NCBI GenBank assembly: GCA_003671275.1
Contig: QWPB01000114.1
Coordinates: 1-35,904 of the forward strand
Length of the DNA stretch: 35,904 nt
Source of the DNA: Planctomycetota bacterium
GTDB lineage: Bacteria > Planctomycetota > Planctomycetia > Planctomycetales > Planctomycetaceae
Direction: 5' to 3'
A program made the translations under genes and the position numbers. Under the pieces are notes generated by a model, which was given only the letters and a program-made list of their open reading frames with translations, did no database searches and was not told the origin of the DNA. Below are positions 4,805-32,417 of this stretch, piece by piece; position 1 is the stretch's first letter, and each line of letters starts with the position of its first letter.

Positions 4805-4909
4805 GACACAGTTCCCGGAGCAGGTGGGATGGTTTATTGTGTGAGTTTAACGCCAGAGACCATGGAACCCGAGTGCATCGCGACGGCCAACACCTGACAG
4901 ACCTCTCTT

Positions 4910-6574
4910 ATGAGTGCCGAATCGGAAAAAAGAAAGATCGGCCCCTTCCAGATCGAGGACAAACTCGGTGTGGGCGGAATGGGGATCGTGTATCGCGCGA
5001 CTTACATCAAAACCGGCCAGGTCGTTGCCCTGAAAGCCTTGGCCCCGGAGCTGTGCGCTGATCCCAAGGTCGCCAAGCGATTCGAACGCGAGATGGAGAT
5101 CCTCAAGAAGCTCAAACACCCGAACATCATCAAATATTACGGCGGGGTTTCCACCTCGGCGCAGCAGTTTTACGCGATGGAGTTACTGTCGGGCGGTGGG
5201 CTGGATGTACATCTTCGAAAAGCGGGTAGGTTCACCTGGCAACAGACTATCGACTACGCCCTGCAGATTGCCAAGGCCCTCGAATATGCCCACAACGCTG
5301 GAATCGTGCATCGCGATCTGAAACCCGCGAACTTGCTGCTAGCGAAGGACGGAACGCTCAAGCTGACCGACTTCGGCATCGCCCGTGACAGCGAGGCCAC
5401 CCAATTGACGCAGGCGGGCAAGACGGTCGGGACGCTGGCATACATGGCCCCCGAGCAGATCACGGGCAAGTCGCCGATTACCCGCCGAACGGATCTGTAC
5501 GCTCTGGGATGCCTCCTGTTTCAGATGATGACCGGACGGACACCATTTGAATCCGCCACGCAGCCGGAACTTCTCTTCAAGCATATCGAGGAGGAGCCGC
5601 CCTCCGTCCGGGAATTCAATCCCGACTGCCCTCGTCCACTCGAATCGCTGATTGCTGAGCTGATGGAGAAGGATCCGAACGATCGCCCGTTCGATGCACT
5701 CTCCGTACAGGTCCGTCTGGAAGAAATCATCCAGAAGGTCGCCGAACAGGAAGAGCAGTCCAAGACCCGCGCCGCCGATGCCGCGGGAGCCACCGTAGCT
5801 GATGCAACCAAGGCCCTCAAGAAGAAGAAAAAGAAGAAAGTAGAACCCGGTGAGTTCATCCCGGTCTACGAGCGCACATGGTTCTACGCGAGCTGCCTGG
5901 TTGCATTAATTGGTGTCGTGATCTGGTTCGCCTGGCCGGAGAGTCTGGAGTCCCAGCACGCTCGATGTCAGGAAGCGATGAAGATTCAAAACTTCGACGC
6001 CATCACGGACTTTGGCGATATCCCCGAATACAGCGACTGGCTTAATCACGTCGACGAGATCGACTCGATCCTGAAGGACTATCCCAACACACCGCAAGCG
6101 GTGGATGCCCGGCGCTGGAAGGACATGATCGAAATGGTCCGTGAGGACCGGCTATCACAAAACAACGTCAAATTCGATCGCGTTCCCAAGAGCGATGCGG
6201 AGCGAGCCTATGTCAATGCCCGCAAATATGAGAAGTTCGGTGACTCCTACACCGCCATCGAAAAGTACGAGGCGATGCAGACCCTCATCGAAAGCACCGA
6301 GGAGTCCCGCCCATTCCTGAACCTCGCCCGGCACCGCGCGGAACTGATCCGCAAGGGGGCCGACAATCAGGCAGACCGCACGGCCTACGTCGAAGCCCAG
6401 CTCAAGAAGGCCGACGATGAGTTCCTTCAGGGAGACAAAGTTCAGGCCCGCGAAAAGTGGCAGAGCATCGTGAAGCTCTACAGCGACTCCCCAGTCTTTG
6501 CCAGCATCGTGGCCCGAGCCAAGGCCCGCGTGATTGACGCCGAAGGCACCCTGAAAGCAGAAGCCCAACCCTAA
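4910..6574 (+). CDS. Membrane Ser/Thr protein kinase (PknB type) with extracytoplasmic helical tail
   Basis: The 554-residue product starts with a complete Hanks-type kinase domain, about residues 11-275. It shows the glycine loop LGVGGMGIV (19-27), the VALK lysine (42), the catalytic loop HRDLKPAN (134-141), DFG (154-156) and APEQ (180-183). After an acidic/Ala linker comes a run of seven lysines just before one membrane segment (about 324-342, WFYASCLVALIGVVIW), consistent with kinase inside and tail outside. The 210-residue outer part is helical and TPR-like, with pairs of 'A..Y...F' type helices. It has no PASTA repeats, so the ligand is unknown. The gene end is only 5 nt from the convergent cyclase gene and no terminator is seen between them. 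Substrates cannot be inferred from the neighbours. Confidence 0.93.
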   Translation: MSAESEKRKIGPFQIEDKLGVGGMGIVYRATYIKTGQVVALKALAPELCADPKVAKRFEREMEILKKLKHPNIIKYYGGVSTSAQQFYAMELLSGGGLDVHLRKAGRFTWQQTIDYALQIAKALEYAHNAGIVHRDLKPANLLLAKDGTLKLTDFGIARDSEATQLTQAGKTVGTLAYMAPEQITGKSPITRRTDLYALGCLLFQMMTGRTPFESATQPELLFKHIEEEPPSVREFNPDCPRPLESLIAELMEKDPNDRPFDALSVQVRLEEIIQKVAEQEEQSKTRAADAAGATVADATKALKKKKKKKVEPGEFIPVYERTWFYASCLVALIGVVIWFAWPESLESQHARCQEAMKIQNFDAITDFGDIPEYSDWLNHVDEIDSILKDYPNTPQAVDARRWKDMIEMVREDRLSQNNVKFDRVPKSDAERAYVNARKYEKFGDSYTAIEKYEAMQTLIESTEESRPFLNLARHRAELIRKGADNQADRTAYVEAQLKKADDEFLQGDKVQAREKWQSIVKLYSDSPVFASIVARAKARVIDAEGTLKAEAQP

Positions 6575-6579
6575 TTCGG

Positions 6580-7866
6580 TCATACGTCCAGGAAGCTCAC
6601 CGCGACGTGATCCCAGCAGTAGACCTTTTCCTCACGGGCCGCGACAAAGCGGACGTTTCCGTCCTGCGAAACCACGATGGCCAGAGAACCAGGAAACCGC
6701 TGGCAAAACCGGAACGCGGAACGGTGCCGCGTTCCCAGGCCATCCGTACGGAGAAAGTGTGTCACTTCTCCTTCCGCATCTTCGCACAATTGAACCGTTT
6801 CAACCTCCGGCAAGGAGCCGGAAATCTCAGAGCCGAAGCCTAGTAATTCGAAACGATTCGTCATCAGAACCGCACCGTCAACACCGGTCAGGCCCGACAC
6901 CATGTGGGCCAGCTCAAAAATGGCCTCATCCAGGTGGGCCACCAGAGGATCGTTCGTGGTCAGGAACTGTTCCCAGGTAATTCCAAGGCCATTGACGTGC
7001 ATCGCCTGCAGTCGGTGGATCAGCCGAAAGACGAGTGAGCGGAACCGACGGCGGGGCTCTTCATCAAGAAAGCGGTACTTCACCTGCAAAAAAGTATTGG
7101 CGGCCATCAGGCGACGACCCACATCCGGGTCGACAAACAGGATGGCTCCGCCGTGCCGCTGCGACCGAACCAGACTGATAATCCGACGCACGACATGCTG
7201 TGAAAGCAGTCCGGTCAACCGTTCAATCACCGATGGATCATTGTTCTGCAACTCGCCGAACTGTCGGATATACTCGGTCCGGGCTTCACGTCGCGAGTCC
7301 TGAAACATCGCGGGCAGCCACGTCGATTCGAACACATCGACTTGTGGTTTACGTAACTGCCCATTGACCAGCATGCCCAGGGTGGTGTTGCCCTGACAGA
7401 CCGTGAGCTGCCCGGGGCCTTTCACACAGATCACCAGCGACGGAGGCAGTGGCGACGGGAGGAGTCGACCGCCATGCGCCGCCTGCAGCCACCGAGGCCC
7501 CGAGTGGACAATCCCCCAGATTGACAGGTCGCCATTCCGCTGCCAGTGGACGCCAATCAGCGACCGATGAAACTCCGCTGCCGGAGCCAATCGTCGCAAC
7601 TCCTGTTCATCGAATGAACGCGACGGAGAAAAGATCAGCCGATGCAGGCCCGTTGGAGGACTGTCGTCCGGAGAGAGTTGTTGCGGCGAACAAGCGAGCA
7701 GCCGAAAGGCGACCGGTCGCTGCTCTTCGGACATCAGGCTGGCCTGGTAGCAGGCGGAGAGAATCTGGGCCAGTGGACCTTCGCCGGGTAATAAGTCCCA
7801 GCCAGCATCGGCGTCCCATGAATCTGCGATGAATCGCGCCAGGTCCGCTGGATAAAGGTGAGCCAT
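6580..7866 (-). CDS. Putative diadenylate (c-di-AMP) cyclase with N-terminal DACNV-type sensor region
   Basis: The C-terminal 110 residues of this 428-residue protein carry both signature motifs of the DisA/CdaA diadenylate cyclase (DAC) fold: DGA at 330-332 inside GVDGAVLMTN, and GTRHRSA at 378-384 followed by the closing strand LAIVVSQDGNVRF. Both the ATP-contacting DGA and RHR triads are intact, so activity (2 ATP to c-di-AMP plus pyrophosphate) is plausible. The segment between the motifs is longer than in DisA or CdaA. The N-terminal 300 residues match what I know as the DACNV sensor region, including HGGAILFVDPD at 238-248. No transmembrane helix or signal peptide is visible, so it is cytosolic, unlike CdaA. 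No SD precedes the ATG. It lies last in a five-gene minus-strand run. An inactive DAC-like sensor is the alternative. Confidence 0.75.
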   Translation of the reverse strand: MAHLYPADLARFIADSWDADAGWDLLPGEGPLAQILSACYQASLMSEEQRPVAFRLLACSPQQLSPDDSPPTGLHRLIFSPSRSFDEQELRRLAPAAEFHRSLIGVHWQRNGDLSIWGIVHSGPRWLQAAHGGRLLPSPLPPSLVICVKGPGQLTVCQGNTTLGMLVNGQLRKPQVDVFESTWLPAMFQDSRREARTEYIRQFGELQNNDPSVIERLTGLLSQHVVRRIISLVRSQRHGGAILFVDPDVGRRLMAANTFLQVKYRFLDEEPRRRFRSLVFRLIHRLQAMHVNGLGITWEQFLTTNDPLVAHLDEAIFELAHMVSGLTGVDGAVLMTNRFELLGFGSEISGSLPEVETVQLCEDAEGEVTHFLRTDGLGTRHRSAFRFCQRFPGSLAIVVSQDGNVRFVAAREEKVYCWDHVAVSFLDV

Positions 7867-20024: not shown

Positions 20025-20111
20025 GCTGTCACATTCCGTACCGACCAAAATCACGACCGACTCTGGTGACCTGCCAGAATCGACGTGCATCCCAACCCTC
20101 TGGGGCGAACG

Positions 20112-23100
20112 ATGAGCGCTTCGAAAGCTTTCGCATTCTCGCTGGCAATCCTGCTGGGAGCTGGTCAAGCATCAGCCCAGGGCGTCATGTATGACGAGCC
20201 CATCGACACGGGTGCGGATTCCAGTGGATCGATTTCAGGGGCAGCTCCCATCGGCTCGGCGGGGGGGTACTTCTGGGCTCAGGGCGACTTTGGTGAACGA
20301 CCGGGCGTTCCGGGGAATTACGCCACCATTGGAGCTTTTGCCCCGCTCGACTTCCTCGGAGCGGACCAGCAATTCTTCATCGATGGAAACATGATGATCA
20401 ACGACAGCACCGAAATGGGGCTGAACGTTGGTCTGGGCTATCGCCGCTTGTTTGATTCGATCGGGATCGTCGGGGTCAACTCCTTCTACACCCTCGATCA
20501 GAGTCAGAACGGCTTCTCCTACAGCCGCAGTAGCTTCGGTGCGGAGTGGTTGACCGATTACTTCCAGTTGACCGGTAACCTGTACGTGCCGTTTGACAGC
20601 AGCGAGAACAATATTGGCCCGGTGATCCTCACCAAGGATTCCCTCTTCCTGAATAACAACCTGGCGTTCCGAAACATTCAGAATGCCGAAACCCCGCTCA
20701 AGGGAGCGGACATCGAAGTCGGTGTCCCCATTCCGGGGGCCGACTGGCTGTCCGTTCACGGCGGGGCCTACCTGTGGGATGGCAAGAACTCGGAAGAGGT
20801 CAAGGGAACCCGGGCTCGTGTGCAGGCCGACTTGACCAACGTTCTGCTCAACCTGTCATTGTCCAAGGATGACATGTACGGCAGCCAGGTTAACTTGGCG
20901 GCCACTTACTTCTTTGGAGCCCATGCGCCCAGCTATGCGCCGCGATCCAAGGATCTCTATGACCGGATGAATGACCGTACCCGCCGGTCCAACCGCATCG
21001 AAACCCGCGAAATCGTCGTTCGTCCGATCGAGTTGGCAATCAATCCAGACACCGGACTGGCCTACACCTTCACCCATGTGGACAACACGGCGGCTGCGGG
21101 CGGAGACGGGACCACTGAACTGCGTCTGAACAACCTCGGACTGGCCTCGGGAACGGGCTCCGACATCATTCTGGTCCATCGTGGCACGACCACCCTGGGA
21201 ACCCCGCTGACGGCTGGTGCCGGCCTGGTGATGGCTGACAATCAGCGGCTGTTCGGCGAAGGTTGCCCGACGTTTATCGACGTGGCCAATCGTCCGGGGG
21301 CTCCCTGCCCGCTGCCGGGCTGGGCGACCACCGGCACGAATCCGTTCGTGGCGGGTGGAGCGGGCGTCAACATTGTTACGCTGGCCGACAACAACATCGT
21401 GTCCGGCCTGAACATGGTTACCGGAGTGGGCGGGAACGCCATCGTCGGAAACGGCATCCAGGACTTCACTCTCACCAAGCTGAATCGAGACATCTCGCCC
21501 CCCACCACCACCGGAGCGGGCGGCGGAATCGTCTTGAACAACGCCACCGGTGTCGGCGTGATCGACGACTTTGGATTCAACATTCCGAGTGCCGTGGGGC
21601 CGAACGGAATCGCGATCACCAACACCAACACGACTCCGCTGAACGTCTCGATCACCAATGGCCGGTACCTCAACGGGGGTGAGAACGGCATCCTGCTGTC
21701 AGGGAATAACGCCGATATCTCGGCCACCATCAACAACGTCCTCAACTCCGGCAGCTCGACCGGCCTGCGCCTCAACGCCACCAACACCGGCGACGTGCTG
21801 GCAAACGTGACCAACAGTCAGTTCAACAATGCGGTTGGTGCGGCTCCTGGGACCGGCGATGGCCTGATGGTGACTGCCAACGGCGGCGATGCCCGGCTGA
21901 ATATCAGCAACTCAACGGCCACCAATGCCGCGCGGGATGGTCTGCATCTTGACGCCGTCAACGGCGGCCAGGCAACCGCATCGGTCAACACTCTGGATCT
22001 GTCCAATGCCGGTGTGGATGCACTCTTCGCGAATGCGGACGACTCCCGCATCAACCTGACGGCCACGGGCGTTAACGGGACCGGAGCGGGTGACGATGGC
22101 TTGGATTTCCGTCTGACCAACGGATCTCAGCTGTTCGGTACCGTCAACAACAGTAATCTGTCCGGAGCCGGAGATGATGGTGTGGTAGGTGTGCTCGGCT
22201 CTGGCTCCAACGCCGTGCTGCAAATCAACAACACCTCGCTGGCGAATGCGGGTGGAAACGGGTTGTTCGTCACGACCAGCGGCACATCGCAGTTCGTGGG
22301 AAGCCTGACTGACAGCTCCCTGGATAGTGCCACCGAGAACGGAGTCCGACTGGATACGGCGGGCACCTCGCGCAGTACGCTGACGCTGGACAACAGCGAC
22401 GCCACGAATGCCGGGCAAAATGGCCTCGTCGCGACGACGGTTGGAAATTCCCGGACCGATCTGGTCCTGATCGATCAAGCCTTTGATGGAGCCGGCCAAG
22501 ACGCCATCAATCTGGCCGCGACGACGAATTCTCTGATTCTGGTGTCCGGGAACAATGTTTCGGGTGCCGGAGCGGGAGACGATGGCCTGCAGATCTCGGC
22601 GGACGATGCCCGCATCGGCTTGAACTGGAGCAACACCGGTTCCTTTGCCGGAGCAACAGACGATGGCATCAACTTCGTTGGAATCAACGGGGCCAACATT
22701 GGCATCGGCATCTCTGGCTCCCCGAGTTCCTTTGATGGAGCGGGCGGCGATGGCATCAGTGGTTCGTTGAACAATTCGACCGGCACGATGGTGCTGTCAG
22801 ATGTCACCTTCCAGAATGCGGGCGGCGAAGGGATCGGCATTACCGCCATCGACTCGACGTTTAACGGCAGCATCACCGATGGCTCGTTCAACAACGCCGG
22901 TTCGAACGGTGCTCGACTGACTCTCAGCAATTCGACAGGTAATCTGGTTCTCAACAACACCGACCTGTTCAATGCGGGAGGTGACGCCCTTGTCGTATCG
23001 GCCATCAATGGTTCCGGGTCGACGGTCAACCTGCTGAATGGAATTTCACTGGACAGTGCGGGTGACGATGCGATCGATGTCAATGTCACAGACTCGACCG

Positions 23101-26100
23101 CCTTGGTTGTTGGCAGCGGAGTGTCGGGAAACAATGCCACCGATGACGCCATCCACGCCAGCAGCGACAACGGCGAGGTCGGCATTCTCCTTGCGAATGC
23201 TGGCTCCTTCACCGCTCCCGGCGGCGATGGCATCGACTTCTCGGGTATTAACAGCAGCACGCTGAACATTCAGGTCGCGGGCTTCCCGGCTGTGTCCTCC
23301 TTTGACAATGCCGGTGCGAATGGAGTTATCGGGACGCTGGACAACTCGACGGCCACCCTCGGGCTGTCCAACACCAGTTTCGACAACGCCGCTCTCGAAG
23401 GGCTGGGAATCACAGCTAACAACGGCTCCCTGTTCGACGGAACCGTCGTCAACGGCTCTTTCGAGAATGCCGGTGGCAATGCGGTCCGCATGACGCTGGA
23501 TGACTCGGATGGCAGCCTGATCCTGAGCACGGTGGATGCCAGCGGAGCGGGCGGACACGGCGTTACGGTGACCAGTGCCAACAATTCCACGGCAACCCTC
23601 GGACTGCTCAACGGTGTGTCGCTTGACGATGCCGCGCTGGACGCCATCAACATCGCTGCCAGCAACAGCTCTTCGGTGGGAGGGGCCGGAACCGGTGTCT
23701 CGGGATCCAATGCCGGGGATGACGGAATCGATCTTTCGGCCACAACCGGTTCGGCAATCCAGCTGACACTGAATCAAACGGGTTCGTTCGCCAATGCCGG
23801 TGGTGACGGAATTGTCACCAGTGCAGTGGACGGAAGTCTGGTCGACCTGACGGTCACAGGACCGGGAGCCTCCTTCAATGGAGCCACGGGCTTCGGTGCC
23901 AGCGTTACAGCCACCAATGGTTCCGCCGGTATCCTGGACCTCAATGGAGTAACCGTCCAGAACGCCGGACTGGATGCGATTCAGGGCACCGCCAACGTCG
24001 GCAGCCTTGTGCGGATGGACCTGACGAATGTTGCCCTCGACAACGCGGGTGATGACGCATTTGATCTCCTGGCCTCAAATGGCAGTCTGTTGGAGGTTGT
24101 CGGAAACGGTGTCTCGGGCCCGAATGCGACCGATGATGCCCTCCATGCGGAAGCGCTGACGGCTTCGCGAGTCGATGTGAACCTCAGTGCCACGGGCTCA
24201 TTCGCCAGTGCCGGAGACGACGGGATCGACTTTATCGGTACAGCGGGCAGTTCGGTCAACCTGGTGATCTCCGGTGCACCGTCCTCGTTTGACGGTGCCG
24301 GTGACAACGGCGTGATCGGTGTGTTGACCGATTCTGCGGGAACACTGAATCTGACGAACACCACCTTCCGCAATGCGGGGACCGATGGTTTGCACCTGGA
24401 TCTGACCAACTCAACGCTGACGGGTTCGGTCGTGGGTAGCGACTTCTCGCGGCCTGGTCCGGCTCCTTCGGGCGACGATGGACTGGAGCTGCTGCTCGAC
24501 AACTCCAACATGACGCTGAACTTCACGGGAACCCCCGTGGACAACGCGGGTGACGATGCGATTCACATCGAAGCCATCAACGGCTCACTGCTCAACACCA
24601 AGTTCACCGGCGGCTCACTGGTGAATGCCGGTGGTGACATGACCGACATCACCTTCGCCGGTGGTTCGGTGGTGAACTTCAACCTGGACCCGGTGGCCAC
24701 CGGGGCCAATCAGAATGGTCTGCGATTCACGGGAACCACCGGCGGTATCCTCAATGCAGATATCAGCGATTCTCCGATGTCGATCGCCACTGATGTGGTT
24801 GGACAGAATGGCGTGCTGGGAACCCTCAACAATGCCACGGCCAACTTGCGGCTGACAAACAGTGACATCTCGAATGCCACTCTCGACGGAATCAACGTCA
24901 ACGCTCAGAACGGATCAACGTTCAATGCAACCATCACGAACAGCCAGGTGTCGAACGCCGGTGGCGATGGCCTGGAGCTGACACTCATCGACTCCCAGTC
25001 CAGCATCACATTCGACGACAGCAATCTGAACGGTGCCGGTGGCGACGGCATTCGTGTCAACGGCACGAACTCGACCTTCAACCTGAATCTCTCGAATGGC
25101 ATCGACATCGATGATGCCACGGGAGATGCCATGGAATTCGTGGCGGATGACTCGACGTTTACCCTCAACGGAAACGCCGGAGTCACCGCGAACAATGCCG
25201 GTGGTGATGCCCTGCGGATCATTGCCACGAACGCGTCGACCGTCACGGGAGTGTTCAACGACCTGGACCTCGACAACGCATCCGCGAATGCCATTGACCT
25301 TCAGGCCACCGACTCGACGATCAACATTCAGGGTCGCGGGTTGACCACCGGAGACAGTGCCGGAGACGACGCCATCCGCATGGCGGGTTTAAATTCAAAC
25401 GTCACGTTGCAGCTGTTCAATGCCGGCTCGTTCGCCAATGCCGGTGGCGATGGCGTCGACATCAGCGGGGACGACAGCCTGATCGGTTTCCGGTTCAGTG
25501 GTGCGGCTCCGGGAGCTGCCAACCTGAGCGGAGCCAACAATAACGGCATCGTCGCCAATCTGATCAACGGCAGTGTGGGTCAGTTCATCATGGATGACTT
25601 CCAGATTCAGGGCTCGGGCCTGAACGGGATCAACCTGGGCCTGATCAACTCGGACATCGTGAATTCGACGTTTACGAATGGCCAGGTCGACAACAATGGC
25701 CAGGACGGAGTTGTCGGTAACCGGAGCGGTCTGCGGATTGTCGCTGACACCGACTCCAACATCGGCACGCGAGCCGGACAGGTGCCGGGGCTGACCTTCG
25801 ATGGCGTCTCCTTCCAGAACGATGCGACCAATCCACGGCCTCAGCAGCACGGCCTCGACATCTCGGTGGACGGCGACAGCTTTGTCGGTGCCAGCTTCAT
25901 CGGTGCGGACATTCGCAACAACGATGGGGACGGGGTGCTGCTGGATGTCAATCCGAATGCCTCTCCGCTGGATACGTCGCTCGCGGTTCTGAACTTCAGC
26001 AACACGTTCGTGAACACGAACTGGGGTGATGGACTGCACATCACTGCCACCAACGGAACCGACGATGCCACTCCGCCGCAGCTGAGCGGAGCCATCATCA

Positions 26101-29100
26101 ACTTCGCCGATGGTGAGATCAACAACAACGGTGACTTCATCAACGCCCCAGCCACGGGGGTGATTGGCAACGGCGTGGGCGATGGCATCGATGCCACGGC
26201 CAATGGCGACAACTCCGTCGCAGGGAACACTCAGATCACCCTGAATCTGACGAACGCCATCATCACGGGGAACGAAGAAGACGCTCTGAATTCATCGATC
26301 AGCAATGGCGGCTCGGTCAACATCAATCTGAACGGGGGTTCGATCGGTGGCGGCATCGATGTCCCCTGTGCGGATGGACCGCTGGCCTTTGTCGAGTTCA
26401 CGCTCAATGGAACCACGGTGGTCAGCTCGTCCCAGTTGATTCTGTGTGCCAAGAATGGCGGGACGCTCAATGCCACCGTGGCAAACATCGACTTCAGCAA
26501 CAACGATGGTCAGGGAATCATTCTGCTGGCTGAATCGGGCGGCGACATCAATGCCAACCTGTCGCATATCGATGTTCGTAACAACGGGAACAACGTGTTC
26601 ACGCCGATCGACCCGGACGTGAACCCGCCCATCACGACGGTGACCGGGGCCATCCAGGGAGTGGTGACCGGGGTTGGATCCACCATCGACCTGACCATGG
26701 ATGAGATGGTTGTGGTGAACAACCTGCAGGGTGGTCTGGACCTGAGTGTTGAAAACGGTGGTGTCCTGAACGCAACCATCACCGACAGCAACTTCTCGGA
26801 TAACGGGGCTTCGGGCTCCTTCGATGCGATTCGAATCGACGTGGATGGTGCTGGTTCCACGGCCAATGTGGGGCTCACCAACATCCTGGCCAACAACGCC
26901 ACCGACGATGGACTCGACTTCGTCACGACCGCAGGTGGTACGTTCAACCTGACGATGAACACGGTCGACGCCACCGGTGCCGGTGGCGATGGATTCTCCT
27001 TCACGCTGGACAACAGCACCGGCAGCATCGACAGCACCGGGCTGGATATCGACGACGCCGATGGCCGGGCTGTCAACCTGCTGGCGGATAACACCAGCTC
27101 GCTCACCGTGACCAACTTCGACAATGTCACCGGACGCAATGCCGGTGAAGAAGGTCTGAAACTGGATGTCCTCAACGGTTCGACGCTGACCGCCTTCAAC
27201 AGCCAGACACTGAACTTCGCGGACTCGGGCCGACTTGTGCCTGCCGTCAACGGCGTCGACATCCTGGTGGCGAACGCCAGCACGACTCCGGTGATCGTCC
27301 TCAACGATGTCAACGCCGACAATGCGGGTGGTCGAGGCTTGCTGGTGACTGCTACGGATCCCACCGTGAGCCTGGCCGGATTGACGGTCAATGGCGGCAG
27401 CTTCGCGGGTGCGGGTGACACCGGCGTCGAAATCAACATCGCCAATCAGACCATTCCCACGACCGTCCAGTTGACGAATGTGAATGCCAGCAACGCCGGA
27501 GACTACGGCGTCCAGCTGAACATCAACAACGTGACCGGTGGTCAGACGGATGTGATCCTGAACGGTGTGGTGGCGAACAATGCCGCCGGTGACGATGGTC
27601 TGGAACTGAACGTCACGGGGCTGGGTGCCACCGATTCGACGCAGATCGCCATCTCGGGCGGATCATCGTTCAACAACGCCGCCAACGAAGGCGTCGACAT
27701 CAATCTGGATGGGGCGGTGGGATCGTTCGCCGAACTGATCTTCAGTGGTGTGTCCGCCAACGATGCCACCAACGATGGTATCAACATCAGCCCGACCAGT
27801 GGACTCGATCTGTTTGTGGGTGACTTCCGCAACGTCTCGGCCATCAACGCCGGGGGGGATGGCCTGGAAGTGATCGCCAACAGCCCGAGCGGATTGCGAT
27901 TGTTCGCCGCGAACAACGTGAATGTCAGCGGTGCCGGGGATGACGGTGTCCTGATGCAGGCCTTCGGACCACAGTCCGGTCCGGCTGTCATCAGCTTCGA
28001 CACGTTGAACGCCAGCAATGCCGGTGGATCGGGTGTGAATATCGACCTGATCGATGCTCCGGGTGCCAGCTCGGTCAGCCTGACGGATGTGAATGCCAGT
28101 GGAGCCCAGACCGGCGACGGGGTGAGCATCCTGGCCGCGATGTCCAACACGGGTGATTCGACCGCGATTTCGCTGAACACGGTGGATGTGAGCAATGCCG
28201 ATGTGGATGGCCTGAATATCCGGCTGTTCGGCAACGGCACTCCGGGCGACACGACTTCCGCGATTTCGCTGAATGGTCTGACCGCAACCGGGGCCACCGA
28301 GGATGGGATCGATATCGGGATCGACACGGGTGTCACGGCCACGGTGGCCCAGTTTGACAACGTGATCGCGACCGGTAACCGTGAGAACGGAATCCAGATC
28401 GACGTGGAGGGCGGCTCGGTCCTGACCCAGTTCACCGCCGATGGAATCGATCTCTCCAACAACGCTCTGAGCGGCATCGGATTCGATGGGCTCGATATCC
28501 AGGTGCATGACGCCGGATCGTCGGCCTCGTTTGATCTGTCGAACCTCACGGTCGACAACAGCGGCGGTCGCGGGATCGATCTGGATGTCTACGACGGAGG
28601 TGACCTGACATTCAACGTGGATACCGCATCGATCGCCAACAGCGGCATCGGGGGCATCGATATCAACGTCGGAATGATCGACGAGAATCACAACGCGGCT
28701 CCGATTGCTGCTGGTCCGGGCACCTTCACTTCCAGCCTGACCGATGTGACGATTCAGAACAGTGGTGCCACGCCGCTGAATCAGGCCGATGGTCTGAACA
28801 TCGATGTCGATGGGGCCGGCTCAGTGGCCACTGTGACATTCGACCATGTGCTGTCCAACAACAACGACCAGGACGGCTTCGATATCAATGTGGATAACGG
28901 AGCTGACGGAACCTTCGTGGTGAACAACGCCACCACCGGTAATAGCAACGCCGGCACGGGCTTCGAGTTCACCGCAGACGGAGCCGCCACGACGGTCTCG
29001 TTGACCTCCACCGCAGGCATCCTGGGTGACAATACCTTCAACAACAACTTCGGCGATGCCCTGACTCCGCTGGATGGGCCGGGGGTCTCGGTCATCCTGA

Positions 29101-32100
29101 CCAATGCAGTCACCGCCACCAACCTGGTGATCGGAGCCAGTGCCTCGGGGAACGATGGCGATGGTCTCCAGGTGATCGCCAACGATGGAACCGGGGTGAC
29201 GATCAACAACTTCGGAATCTCGGGCACCGCTCTCCAGGTGGACAACAACGCAGGGAACGGACTGCTGGTGGACTTCTTCGCCGTGAATGGGGTCAACGCC
29301 TTCGATCTGACCAACGTCTCGGTCACGGGGAACGCCCTGGATCAGATCCATGCCGAGTTCCGCAGCATGACCATGGATCACATCTCGCTGGAGAATGTGA
29401 CTGCCACGGGAATCGGGGGTGGAACCGGCGACGGGATCGATATCACATTGCTGGACACCACACTGACGAATGCGGGATACGCCTTCACCGTGGACAGTGT
29501 GGTCTCGACCAACAACGGGGGATTCGGTCTCAACCTGAACGTGGATGAAGCCGGTGTTCCGGATGCCATTCAGACTGCCGGAATCACCAACGGCCTGATC
29601 ACAGCCAGCGAATTCGCCAACAACGGAGCGGCTGGGGTCCGGATGACGTTCGGGGGTGACTCGGTCAACAACTTTGACATCCTGCTGAACACGGCCGGTT
29701 TCCATGACAACGCCCAGGAAGGAATCCTGGTCGAGGTTCAGGACGCCGCGACCTTCCAGATTGGTGAAGCCAACTCGATCCTGAATACGAACCTGATCCT
29801 GCCAGGTCGGTCGATGTACGAGAACCAGATTACCGACAACGGCGGCATCGGCTTCCACGTGGTGGCCAGCGAGCCCCTCGATGTGAACCTGATCACTCCC
29901 GATCTGGTCGGACCACGCGTCGTGTTGCACCTGGGTGACCCGGACCGCAACCCGAACGTGATCACCGGAAACACCGACGCCGCCATGGCGATCGAAATGT
30001 CCGGCGACGCCACGGGACAGTTCACCATCAACAGCTCGATCCTGTCTGAGACCGTCAACGGAGCCAACGCCAACTTCAATGGTGACGGACTGGCCTTCCG
30101 GATGACCGACTTCGCCTCGCTGGAATCGTTGACGATCGACGGGGCGACCTCGACCCTCGACATCAACGACAATGCGGGCAGCGGCCTGGTGACGAATATC
30201 AGCCGGTTCTCCGAACTGGGGACGACCAGCCGGTTGACGGTGCTGAACTCGACGATCGAGCGAAACGGGCTGCACGGCATCGACATTCAACGAAATGACA
30301 ATGCCCTGTACGGACCGGATTCGGCCAACAATGCGATCATCATCGGTTCCGCCAACAACGGTAACCTGATTCGCGACAACCAGCAGAACGGTTTGAATCT
30401 CGTCCTCGGAAACGCTCCGGGCGGCATCCTGCCATTCGACATCGATGTCACCGACAACGTGTTCGAACGGAATCTGAACGGGGTGTTCCTCAACGGAACG
30501 GGTAACGCCCAGTTCGTCGGAAACATCTCGGACAACGACTTCGACGCCAACCGTCAGGACGGAATCCAGGTGGTTCTGGAGAACAACGCCGCCATCGGCG
30601 ATCCCCGCCTGGCGAACAACCCGGGCCTGATTCCGTTCCTGTTCGAAGGGAACCAGATTCTCAACAGTGTTCGGGACGGGATTCGGTTCGACACCAACTT
30701 CACCAACGAAGCCGGGCTGTTCGGTGCGGGGGCATACGCCAACGTGTTGATCACCGAGAGTGCGAACTTCCTGGATGGCTTCGGCGATCCGGTTCGGACG
30801 CTGATCGATGGCAACGGAGTCCACGGGGTCCACATCATCGACAACAGCGACTTCGTCGCAGCTCCGGGTGTGGCCGTGACTAGTCAGAACACCTACCAGA
30901 TCATCAACTCGGACATCACCAACAACACGGTGGATGGTATCCACGTGAATGTGGCAAACAACGCGGGCATTCGAGATTTCAACAACGGCATCAACCTGAT
31001 TGTGGGTGACCCGAACAATGCGGATCAACGCGATGTGCAGATCAACAACAACGGGGATGACGGAATCGATCTCGAACTCGCCGACTCCGACAGCATCACG
31101 AACATCATTCGCATCGCCCAGACCACGCTCGCCTTCAACGGGGCGACCGGAGATGCGACGGGTGGAAACGGAATTGAGACGGATGTGCTGAGCTCCGGAT
31201 CGATGAACATGTCCTTGGAAACTCTGGACATCATGAACAATGCCGATGACGGCATGCGGTTCGACATCTCCACCACGCGGGCCAGTGCCACCAAGTCGCA
31301 AGTCGGTACCGCCACCACCGTGAATGCGGTGACGCTGGTCGAAATGTACGGGGTCGATTCCTCGCAGAACGGTGGACGCGGACTGAATGCGATCATGACC
31401 CACGATCGCATCAACAGTGGTGCCGCCTCGACCAGTGTGTTCAACATTGGACGCGGCGACCGGACCGTGGACCCGATTTCGCCCGATCCCCGCCAGACGA
31501 CCTTCGTCAACCGGTTCAACGGCAATGCTCGGGAAGGGGTGGTGTTCGACATGCAGGCTACCAGCCTGGATCAGGACACCGTGGCCGCGAATCCGTTCCC
31601 ACACAGCTTGCAGACCGACATCAACGACGATGTGTTTGTCGATGTGAACTTGCCGCAAAACTCCGCTGCACTGAACAGTGGATTGGACCGTCCAAGCACG
31701 GCTCATCTTCTGGTGAGCAATGGCAGTTTGCATGACGATCTTGGAAATGTGCCGCCACAGCCATCCGTGGCCGAAACGCGGATTCACCAGGTCTCCACGA
31801 TCAACTTCATCCACAACGAAGTCTCAAACAACGGAACGAACTTCGAAGACGGCGTGGCCTTCGGTATCGGTGCCATGACCCGGCTGAATGCCACGATCGC
31901 TGGAAACAGCTTTGGTGGAAACGTGGGTGACGACATCCGCGTCTATCCGCAGCGATCCAGCGAACTCAATCCGCCGAATTCGTTTAACGATACGGCCAAC
32001 GATGGATCCCACAGCTACCTCGTGCATGATCCGGTGGCCTATGCGGACCTCGTCTTCGGCTCGGTCGATACCAACCTGGATGGAACGCCCGACACCACCT

Positions 32101-32417
32101 TCGGAAACGGACGCAGTCCTGATGCCAGCACCGCCGCATCCGATGCGGTGGCCAAGGGTGAACAGATCGCGATCCTGACGTTCGGAACCAATCAGACTAG
32201 TCAGATCACGGAAGACGGTGTTTACACGAACAACGATCCGATCACGGGTACAAACCGTTCGGTCCGGCTGGCCGGTCAAGTTCAGATCAACGGCATCTTC
32301 GATGATGAAACCATCAACGACTTCTTCGAGAACGGTGTGCAGCAGAACATCGACAATCAGTTCTTGTTCTTCCTGCAGAACCTGGCCACCCAGAATCCAG
32401 ACCCACTCTTCCCGTAA
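20112..32417 (+). CDS. Giant inverse-autotransporter-like surface protein with beta-helix passenger (about 4,101 aa)
   Basis: One uninterrupted frame. It starts with a Sec signal peptide (residues 1-22, MSASKAFAFSLAILLGAGQASA). Residues about 47-271 are alternating strands with aromatic girdle positions (GGYFWAQGDFG, MGLNVGLGYRRLF, GIVGVNSFYTLDQS, LLNLSLSKDDMYGSQVNLAATYFFG), fitting the N-terminal beta-barrel of intimin/invasin-type inverse autotransporters. A basic linker (DRTRRSNRIETREIVVRP) and a cap-like domain with two cysteines follow. Then come about 3,500 residues of coils of 25-30 residues with a turn of type N-A-G-G/D-D-G-I and Asn/Ser/Thr-rich strands, that is a right-handed beta-helix. 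I see only four cysteines in all and no C-terminal anchor, sorting signal or barrel. Export of the passenger through its own N-terminal barrel in the outer membrane is inferred. The start at 20112 is chosen by the signal peptide; an in-frame ATG at 20085 is less likely. Adhesion or surface-layer function is likely but unproven. Confidence 0.85.
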   Translation: MSASKAFAFSLAILLGAGQASAQGVMYDEPIDTGADSSGSISGAAPIGSAGGYFWAQGDFGERPGVPGNYATIGAFAPLDFLGADQQFFIDGNMMINDSTEMGLNVGLGYRRLFDSIGIVGVNSFYTLDQSQNGFSYSRSSFGAEWLTDYFQLTGNLYVPFDSSENNIGPVILTKDSLFLNNNLAFRNIQNAETPLKGADIEVGVPIPGADWLSVHGGAYLWDGKNSEEVKGTRARVQADLTNVLLNLSLSKDDMYGSQVNLAATYFFGAHAPSYAPRSKDLYDRMNDRTRRSNRIETREIVVRPIELAINPDTGLAYTFTHVDNTAAAGGDGTTELRLNNLGLASGTGSDIILVHRGTTTLGTPLTAGAGLVMADNQRLFGEGCPTFIDVANRPGAPCPLPGWATTGTNPFVAGGAGVNIVTLADNNIVSGLNMVTGVGGNAIVGNGIQDFTLTKLNRDISPPTTTGAGGGIVLNNATGVGVIDDFGFNIPSAVGPNGIAITNTNTTPLNVSITNGRYLNGGENGILLSGNNADISATINNVLNSGSSTGLRLNATNTGDVLANVTNSQFNNAVGAAPGTGDGLMVTANGGDARLNISNSTATNAARDGLHLDAVNGGQATASVNTLDLSNAGVDALFANADDSRINLTATGVNGTGAGDDGLDFRLTNGSQLFGTVNNSNLSGAGDDGVVGVLGSGSNAVLQINNTSLANAGGNGLFVTTSGTSQFVGSLTDSSLDSATENGVRLDTAGTSRSTLTLDNSDATNAGQNGLVATTVGNSRTDLVLIDQAFDGAGQDAINLAATTNSLILVSGNNVSGAGAGDDGLQISADDARIGLNWSNTGSFAGATDDGINFVGINGANIGIGISGSPSSFDGAGGDGISGSLNNSTGTMVLSDVTFQNAGGEGIGITAIDSTFNGSITDGSFNNAGSNGARLTLSNSTGNLVLNNTDLFNAGGDALVVSAINGSGSTVNLLNGISLDSAGDDAIDVNVTDSTALVVGSGVSGNNATDDAIHASSDNGEVGILLANAGSFTAPGGDGIDFSGINSSTLNIQVAGFPAVSSFDNAGANGVIGTLDNSTATLGLSNTSFDNAALEGLGITANNGSLFDGTVVNGSFENAGGNAVRMTLDDSDGSLILSTVDASGAGGHGVTVTSANNSTATLGLLNGVSLDDAALDAINIAASNSSSVGGAGTGVSGSNAGDDGIDLSATTGSAIQLTLNQTGSFANAGGDGIVTSAVDGSLVDLTVTGPGASFNGATGFGASVTATNGSAGILDLNGVTVQNAGLDAIQGTANVGSLVRMDLTNVALDNAGDDAFDLLASNGSLLEVVGNGVSGPNATDDALHAEALTASRVDVNLSATGSFASAGDDGIDFIGTAGSSVNLVISGAPSSFDGAGDNGVIGVLTDSAGTLNLTNTTFRNAGTDGLHLDLTNSTLTGSVVGSDFSRPGPAPSGDDGLELLLDNSNMTLNFTGTPVDNAGDDAIHIEAINGSLLNTKFTGGSLVNAGGDMTDITFAGGSVVNFNLDPVATGANQNGLRFTGTTGGILNADISDSPMSIATDVVGQNGVLGTLNNATANLRLTNSDISNATLDGINVNAQNGSTFNATITNSQVSNAGGDGLELTLIDSQSSITFDDSNLNGAGGDGIRVNGTNSTFNLNLSNGIDIDDATGDAMEFVADDSTFTLNGNAGVTANNAGGDALRIIATNASTVTGVFNDLDLDNASANAIDLQATDSTINIQGRGLTTGDSAGDDAIRMAGLNSNVTLQLFNAGSFANAGGDGVDISGDDSLIGFRFSGAAPGAANLSGANNNGIVANLINGSVGQFIMDDFQIQGSGLNGINLGLINSDIVNSTFTNGQVDNNGQDGVVGNRSGLRIVADTDSNIGTRAGQVPGLTFDGVSFQNDATNPRPQQHGLDISVDGDSFVGASFIGADIRNNDGDGVLLDVNPNASPLDTSLAVLNFSNTFVNTNWGDGLHITATNGTDDATPPQLSGAIINFADGEINNNGDFINAPATGVIGNGVGDGIDATANGDNSVAGNTQITLNLTNAIITGNEEDALNSSISNGGSVNINLNGGSIGGGIDVPCADGPLAFVEFTLNGTTVVSSSQLILCAKNGGTLNATVANIDFSNNDGQGIILLAESGGDINANLSHIDVRNNGNNVFTPIDPDVNPPITTVTGAIQGVVTGVGSTIDLTMDEMVVVNNLQGGLDLSVENGGVLNATITDSNFSDNGASGSFDAIRIDVDGAGSTANVGLTNILANNATDDGLDFVTTAGGTFNLTMNTVDATGAGGDGFSFTLDNSTGSIDSTGLDIDDADGRAVNLLADNTSSLTVTNFDNVTGRNAGEEGLKLDVLNGSTLTAFNSQTLNFADSGRLVPAVNGVDILVANASTTPVIVLNDVNADNAGGRGLLVTATDPTVSLAGLTVNGGSFAGAGDTGVEINIANQTIPTTVQLTNVNASNAGDYGVQLNINNVTGGQTDVILNGVVANNAAGDDGLELNVTGLGATDSTQIAISGGSSFNNAANEGVDINLDGAVGSFAELIFSGVSANDATNDGINISPTSGLDLFVGDFRNVSAINAGGDGLEVIANSPSGLRLFAANNVNVSGAGDDGVLMQAFGPQSGPAVISFDTLNASNAGGSGVNIDLIDAPGASSVSLTDVNASGAQTGDGVSILAAMSNTGDSTAISLNTVDVSNADVDGLNIRLFGNGTPGDTTSAISLNGLTATGATEDGIDIGIDTGVTATVAQFDNVIATGNRENGIQIDVEGGSVLTQFTADGIDLSNNALSGIGFDGLDIQVHDAGSSASFDLSNLTVDNSGGRGIDLDVYDGGDLTFNVDTASIANSGIGGIDINVGMIDENHNAAPIAAGPGTFTSSLTDVTIQNSGATPLNQADGLNIDVDGAGSVATVTFDHVLSNNNDQDGFDINVDNGADGTFVVNNATTGNSNAGTGFEFTADGAATTVSLTSTAGILGDNTFNNNFGDALTPLDGPGVSVILTNAVTATNLVIGASASGNDGDGLQVIANDGTGVTINNFGISGTALQVDNNAGNGLLVDFFAVNGVNAFDLTNVSVTGNALDQIHAEFRSMTMDHISLENVTATGIGGGTGDGIDITLLDTTLTNAGYAFTVDSVVSTNNGGFGLNLNVDEAGVPDAIQTAGITNGLITASEFANNGAAGVRMTFGGDSVNNFDILLNTAGFHDNAQEGILVEVQDAATFQIGEANSILNTNLILPGRSMYENQITDNGGIGFHVVASEPLDVNLITPDLVGPRVVLHLGDPDRNPNVITGNTDAAMAIEMSGDATGQFTINSSILSETVNGANANFNGDGLAFRMTDFASLESLTIDGATSTLDINDNAGSGLVTNISRFSELGTTSRLTVLNSTIERNGLHGIDIQRNDNALYGPDSANNAIIIGSANNGNLIRDNQQNGLNLVLGNAPGGILPFDIDVTDNVFERNLNGVFLNGTGNAQFVGNISDNDFDANRQDGIQVVLENNAAIGDPRLANNPGLIPFLFEGNQILNSVRDGIRFDTNFTNEAGLFGAGAYANVLITESANFLDGFGDPVRTLIDGNGVHGVHIIDNSDFVAAPGVAVTSQNTYQIINSDITNNTVDGIHVNVANNAGIRDFNNGINLIVGDPNNADQRDVQINNNGDDGIDLELADSDSITNIIRIAQTTLAFNGATGDATGGNGIETDVLSSGSMNMSLETLDIMNNADDGMRFDISTTRASATKSQVGTATTVNAVTLVEMYGVDSSQNGGRGLNAIMTHDRINSGAASTSVFNIGRGDRTVDPISPDPRQTTFVNRFNGNAREGVVFDMQATSLDQDTVAANPFPHSLQTDINDDVFVDVNLPQNSAALNSGLDRPSTAHLLVSNGSLHDDLGNVPPQPSVAETRIHQVSTINFIHNEVSNNGTNFEDGVAFGIGAMTRLNATIAGNSFGGNVGDDIRVYPQRSSELNPPNSFNDTANDGSHSYLVHDPVAYADLVFGSVDTNLDGTPDTTFGNGRSPDASTAASDAVAKGEQIAILTFGTNQTSQITEDGVYTNNDPITGTNRSVRLAGQVQINGIFDDETINDFFENGVQQNIDNQFLFFLQNLATQNPDPLFP
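22557..24110 (+). repeat. In-frame super-repeats (188, 192 and 138 residues) in the beta-helix passenger
   Basis: The marker V-S-G-x-x-A-x-D-D recurs at 22557, 23121, 23697 and 24111. The units are therefore 564, 576 and 414 nt. The first two contain seven coils of 25-28 residues with matching order: AGSF, SSFD-AG, a QNAG/DNAA coil, a GSFNNAG coil, an NLLNG-type coil and a D(S/D)A coil. The third unit lacks two coils. A fourth copy begins at 24111 and decays. Unequal recombination between units is the likely origin. Nucleotide identity between units is only moderate, so the duplication is not very recent. Confidence 0.75.

Follow-up and report, generated by a model that had tools for sequence, protein, structure and literature searches.

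A planctomycete DACNV-DAC protein as a candidate accessory c-di-AMP synthase

Can a planctomycete protein that joins an N-terminal DACNV domain to a divergent diadenylate cyclase (DAC) core make c-di-AMP, and what would it add to a genome that already holds another DAC? The question is raised by a gene on the minus strand of the window (the whole 35,904-nucleotide stretch of DNA analyzed here), which occupies 6580..7866, stop included, starts with an ATG at 7866 and encodes 428 amino acids. Weighed on sequence evidence, its product would be an accessory, signal-gated c-di-AMP synthase, a reading to which we give a probability of about 0.62. The gene offers a test case for the activity of DACNV-type cyclases in a phylum in which c-di-AMP signaling looks little studied, as the original prediction had it: a search of the open-licence literature returned no paper on planctomycete c-di-AMP signaling by title and no paper on DACNV.

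Domain make-up and kinship of the core

The N-terminal part of the protein matches the Pfam model PF21751 (DACNV, a “probable sensor domain”) over residues 26-121 (7504..7791, minus strand; E 9e-29 and 100 bits, the cut-off being 27), and the genome search gives the identical span, so that the proposed fusion to a DACNV-like region holds. The C-terminal part is less easily recognized. The divergent DAC catalytic core is placed at residues ~215-428 (6583..7224, minus strand; the start is an estimate), where PF02457 (DAC) matches residues 375-408 only, with E 1.5e-4 and 21.8 bits, under the cut-off of 27. Up to E 1, Pfam returns DACNV and DAC matches only; it finds neither PF21755 (DacZ_P) nor the DNA-binding helix-hairpin-helix part that defines DisA. 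NCBIfam gives no match up to E 1. The highest 19-residue mean hydropathy is 1.26, which does not indicate a membrane helix, and the description of a protein with neither membrane helices nor the DisA DNA-binding part is thereby borne out. No viral relatives of the protein were found.

Is the core then related to known DACs at all? The PF02457 score is indecisive, as is a PDB search with the single sequence, whose matches are taken as chance only, and two profiles were therefore compared against each other: 29 rows of the DACNV-DAC family and 19 DACs of other kinds found in this order (of the 21 loci read, L122 and L132 did not show the motif pattern and were left out). With hhalign, the full-length DACNV-DAC family aligns to the 19 planctomycete DACs at 96.4% (E 9e-10) and residues 205-428 at 95.1% (E 3e-8, 71 columns), against 0.2% for the N-terminal 200 residues and 0.1% for an unrelated flavoprotein family used as controls. 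The full-length alignment pairs HGG 238-240 with the first DAC strand, DGA with DGA, GTRHR with GARHW and SQDG with SEST of the DacZ-type DAC, while extra residues flank DGA on either side in the DACNV family when compared with the other DACs. The family profile was also run against solved structures, which gave 21 matches up to E 1. Diadenylate cyclases make up 17 of these, 16 by name (CdaA, DisA and DAC-domain entries) and the other being 2fb5, described as a Bacillus cereus CdaS homologue (PMC8573169). That search ranks a designed repeat protein of no relation first (E 0.0017); the DAC matches are weaker (best E 0.023) and cover no more than the stretch that starts at RHR, or part of it. 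Judged by these profiles, the core is homologous to the DACs. Predicted models of the full length and of the core alone, built from two-sequence input, reached pLDDT 36 and 47 and were disregarded, together with a fold search using the low-confidence core model (297 matches up to E 10, none at E 0.001).

The architecture is of a kind already described, both by the Pfam model and by NCBI names, such as the “putative sensor domain DACNV-containing protein” annotated on two Hymenobacter plasmids, and the window protein is a further member. The DACNV domain was reportedly defined by Galperin in 2023. An N-terminal domain above cut-off, the core motifs and the long motif spacing are all common to the family and the window protein, and no feature was found that sets the protein apart. 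The fusion noted originally is real and belongs to a described architecture.

Active-site motifs, selection and catalysis

The active site was read from a 40-row alignment of the window protein and 39 loci. Twelve loci were left out as duplicates (L003, L004, L033-L037, L053) or as partial or broken (L016, L018, L019, L030), together with ORFs below 300 aa, L032 (no matching ORF), the Hymenobacter loci L059 and L060 (L060 being included in the tree only), and the order-search matches with no fetched locus, including second copies among these. Both catalytic motifs stand at the residues first proposed. DGA occupies residues 330-332 (6871..6879; all motif coordinates are on the minus strand), with A in 26/40 rows, and RHR occupies residues 380-382 (6721..6729), with R382 in 27/40. 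A third motif, SQDG at residues 400-403 (6658..6669), takes the place of the CdaA SEET; here the metal-motif glutamate is replaced by Q401, a glutamine found in 37/40 rows, with the aspartate D402 adjacent. None of the 40 rows departs from the window protein at D330, G331, G378, R380, H381, S400 or D402. HGG at residues 238-240 (7147..7155), with G239 in 40/40 rows, aligns with a strand of the DacZ-type DAC and is likely the first strand of the core.

Two features differ from the better-known enzymes. The spacing from the motif D to the motif R is 50 in the window protein, longer than in DisA; it ranges from 42 to 53 across the 40 rows and from 31 to 34 in the 19 other planctomycete DACs. The long spacing noted at the outset is therefore confirmed against B. 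subtilis CdaA, where D171 and R203 give 32 (PMC8573169), and, by sequence, is a family trait. The residue before DGA is V329 in place of His; DisA, which like the window protein is soluble, also lacks this His (PMC12974146). With the CdaA/DacA enzymes the protein has DGA, RHR and a serine-containing third motif in common (PMC8573169; PMC12974146), but membrane helices are not predicted, HDGA becomes VDGA and SEET becomes SQDG. The third letter of RHR is variable in the other planctomycete DACs (12 RHW, 1 RHQ and 6 RHA, RHT or RHH among the 19), and is thus probably dispensable; the window protein retains R382 all the same. Some DACNV-DAC homologues carry DGF, DGL, RHL or RHS, variants that may mark inactive members of the family.

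In Leptospira CdaA, the mutations D172A or R203A are reported to abolish activity, while S222A leaves a conversion of 47.5% (PMC12974146); we equate these three residues by motif with D330, R380 and S400. Furthermore, the gene is under strong purifying selection, with dN/dS of 0.05 (between the window's genome G000 and G155), 0.13 (G000-G091) and 0.14 (G155-G091), rough figures given that dS is saturated at 1.6-2.3. The low dN/dS and the conservation of D330, G331, R380 and H381 in all 40 rows mean that the intact motifs are no chance occurrence. Residues, homology and selection thus speak for the original prediction of a candidate c-di-AMP synthase.

Does the conservation necessarily reflect catalysis? 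It is conceivable, if unlikely, that the protein is a DAC-fold sensor, whose core would bind c-di-AMP or ATP without catalysis and signal to a partner through DACNV or the long loops. Such a role would sit well with the glutamine at the metal motif and with the extra residues on either side of DGA. However, the four residues of importance in CdaA (D, R, H and S; PMC12974146) are the very ones that do not vary in the alignment, and an aspartate described as acting on the ATP of the partner subunit (PMC6741144) would be unneeded by a pure binder.

For catalysis, product identity, gating and receptors, as for the part of the other DAC as housekeeping enzyme, we infer the following scheme under the synthase reading. 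Two copies of the DAC core would meet head to head and join two ATP molecules into c-di-AMP by means of D330 and the R380-H381 motif, S400 and D402 lying close to the triphosphate and the metal. Gating of the cyclase would fall to the DACNV domain, which probably either binds a signal from the cytosol or brings about the assembly of oligomers. The c-di-AMP made would join the pool that the DacZ-type housekeeping cyclase maintains; a PgpH-like HD phosphodiesterase, and perhaps also a DHH-DHHA1 enzyme, would remove it, and RCK_C proteins, a potassium channel among them, could read it.

The second DAC, the c-di-AMP circuit and the gene neighborhood

Counting its own genome, the window protein has matches in 31/170 genomes of the order, and DACNV occurs in 20/246 genomes sampled from the phylum. 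In the tree the window protein groups with G155 and G091 (100/100); the grouping with G078 is less certain (93/85). All but one of the 31 genomes (the exception is G121) also carry a PF02457 match at E <=1e-20, and the window cyclase therefore looks accessory. The same observation lends something to the sensor alternative, since with a strong DAC of another kind at hand catalysis by the window protein need not be essential. A PF02457 search of the window's genome at E 0.001 returns this other DAC alone, a DacZ_P+DAC protein by Pfam, of 310 aa (L001 1426-2358, minus strand), which is likely the housekeeping enzyme. PF02457 was positive in 11/14 control genomes, with E. coli among the negatives. 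It has the DAC core with DGA, G.RH and a serine motif in common with the window protein, and differs from it in its N-terminal domain, in a D-to-R spacing of 34 and in RHW for RHR, a replacement that makes it one of the 12 RHW proteins among the 19 planctomycete DACs. A studied relative is the archaeal DacZ of Haloferax (PMC6741144).

The window's genome has the parts of a c-di-AMP circuit, with receptors assigned by family alone. One 7TM-HD protein is a PgpH-like phosphodiesterase candidate. There are three DHHA1 matches, one of them in a 355-aa ORF that reads like NrnA, and three TrkA_C (RCK_C) proteins, namely a K+ channel (TrkA_N/TrkA_C), a RimK-like protein and a CitMHS protein. The genome search for phosphodiesterases and receptors that was proposed with the original prediction has thus yielded candidates of both sorts. 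Neither a c-di-AMP riboswitch (control positive in 2/14) nor, at E 0.001, a cNMP_binding domain (control positive in 10/14) was matched in this genome.

Could the signal be read from the neighbors instead? A trypsin-like protease gene on the same strand precedes the DACNV-DAC gene by 88 bp, and a convergent gene encodes a Ser/Thr kinase. Pfam, applied to selected neighbors, assigns the protease to Trypsin_2 (E 6e-33) and gives the neighboring heme lipoprotein a weak match to cytochrome c' (E 0.001, under the cut-off). These neighbors had been taken to hint at an envelope or redox stress input, and an operon of that kind, comprising the upstream protease, the cytochrome lipoprotein and the cyclase, would account for the strand and the spacing. 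The idea finds no comparative support. The picked neighbors in the two nearest relatives, G155 (82% identical, on the contig of L002) and G091 (68%), differ and match no window neighbor at E 1e-8. In G091 the DAC gene is preceded, at 27 bp, by an aminotransferase gene. G155 does have a 219-aa CxxCH ORF two genes downstream of its DAC, but this has only CxxCH in common with the window's lipoprotein. Across the 38 other neighborhoods, the protease family is found in one locus, non-adjacent, and the lipoprotein family in none (E 1e-8, picked ORFs). These counts are read with the picking procedure in mind, which keeps the longest ORF and may choose a wrong-strand frame (as it did in L002, for which the full ORF list was used), and which left 4/39 neighborhoods with no picked DAC ORF (L082, L083, L084, L090). 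A stress operon is thus a very improbable account of the gene, and the accessory synthase is retained. Elsewhere in the window, a 4110-aa open frame occupies 20085-32417 on the plus strand.

A cNMP-binding flavoprotein beside the candidate cyclase in a sister clade

A conserved neighbor does occur in a sister clade. In L066-L070, which represent five genera, the gene next to the DACNV-DAC gene, on the same strand and at -19 to 109 bp, encodes a flavoprotein with cNMP-binding and Pyr_redox_2 domains. The five proteins cluster by BLAST, and those of L066 (7657-9312) and L067 (4264-5886) were checked by Pfam; those of L068 (7625-9274), L069 (4547-6235) and L070 (7514-9151) are taken as the same flavoprotein or a relative. 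Genome G026, from the genus of G027, has the same gene pair, Pfam-checked (flavoprotein at L139 5121-6758), making six genomes of five genera in total. Four of the five flavoproteins of L066-L070 lack a CxxC/CxxxC pattern (L067 has one, at 430), so that the flavoprotein, though thioredoxin-reductase-like, is probably no thioredoxin reductase proper. A search of the open-licence literature returned, by title and abstract start, no paper on this pairing of a diadenylate cyclase with a thioredoxin-reductase-like protein.

How tight is this association? The cNMP-flavoprotein is found in 12/170 genomes (E 1e-30), and DACNV-DAC is adjacent in six of them. In a seventh, G067, a broken DACNV-DAC lies ~7 kb away on the same contig. 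G054 has a stand-alone DAC of another type (PF02457, 62.5 bits) divergent beside the flavoprotein (L136 ~4810-7302), where the called ORFs overlap and the true starts are guessed. In the other four (G003, G004, G077, G150) no DAC was found in the 12-13 kb around the flavoprotein. At the genome level, DACNV-DAC accompanies the flavoprotein in 7/12 genomes, as against 24/158 of the remainder (Fisher p 0.0014, not corrected for kinship). In a phylum sample the flavoprotein is matched in 18/392 genomes at E 1e-60, and none of 14 further genomes from it has a DAC nearby in the 6.7-12 kb taken. Five of those 14 flavoprotein relatives (L168-L172) have, by eye, a receiver-like domain instead of cNMP. 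The six flavoprotein-linked DACs form one clade in the tree (100/98), apart from that of the window protein. The pairing thus apparently has a single origin, the window gene lying outside it and G054 being a separate case.

Within the sister clade, the cNMP-flavoprotein may be what reads the product of the DAC, and this conserved neighbor is a directly testable receptor candidate that would link the DAC to redox metabolism. If it is a reader, a pyridine-nucleotide oxidoreductase would come under the control of the DAC product by way of the cNMP fold, a fold that we do not know as a receptor type for any DAC product. We tentatively entertain the broader possibility, which we do not favor at present, that DACNV cyclases are specialized, patchily distributed generators of signals for local readers, the adjacent flavoprotein being the reader in the sister clade and the window gene a like generator whose reader is unlinked. 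As an explanation of the window gene itself the flavoprotein pairing was rejected, given that its genome has no match to the flavoprotein (E 1e-30) or to cNMP_binding (E 0.001).

The pairing also bears on the identity of the product. The cNMP fold is known for binding cAMP and cGMP, and its presence in an adjoining gene in six genomes, taken with the altered surroundings of the active site, could mean that the cyclase makes an adenine nucleotide other than c-di-AMP, cyclic or linear, to be read by cNMP-fold domains such as that of the sister-genome flavoprotein. We regard this as quite unlikely: cNMP-binding domains go unmatched in the window's genome at the threshold given above, the cNMP-flavoprotein also occurs where no DAC stands in the sequence read around it, and DAC chemistry is, to our knowledge, known for c-di-AMP only. 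Synthesis of c-di-AMP remains the preferred reading for the window protein.

Other neighbors recur in places. Patatin-like phospholipase genes lie directly upstream of DACNV-DAC in a planctomycete (L079 3729-5177) and on a Hymenobacter plasmid (L060 5674-7923). One of the two encodes a patatin-Omp85 protein. The other, in G141, overlaps the DAC gene by 4 bp, but the near relative G135 has a TetR gene upstream instead. A CBASS-like phospholipase effector was considered on account of the patatin neighbors and set aside as too thin. Finally, RHQ-type DACNV-DAC genes are followed in three genomes by a frame of >2000 aa that runs to the end of the stretch (L073 7757-14001, L074 7391-14001 and L099 7486-14001).
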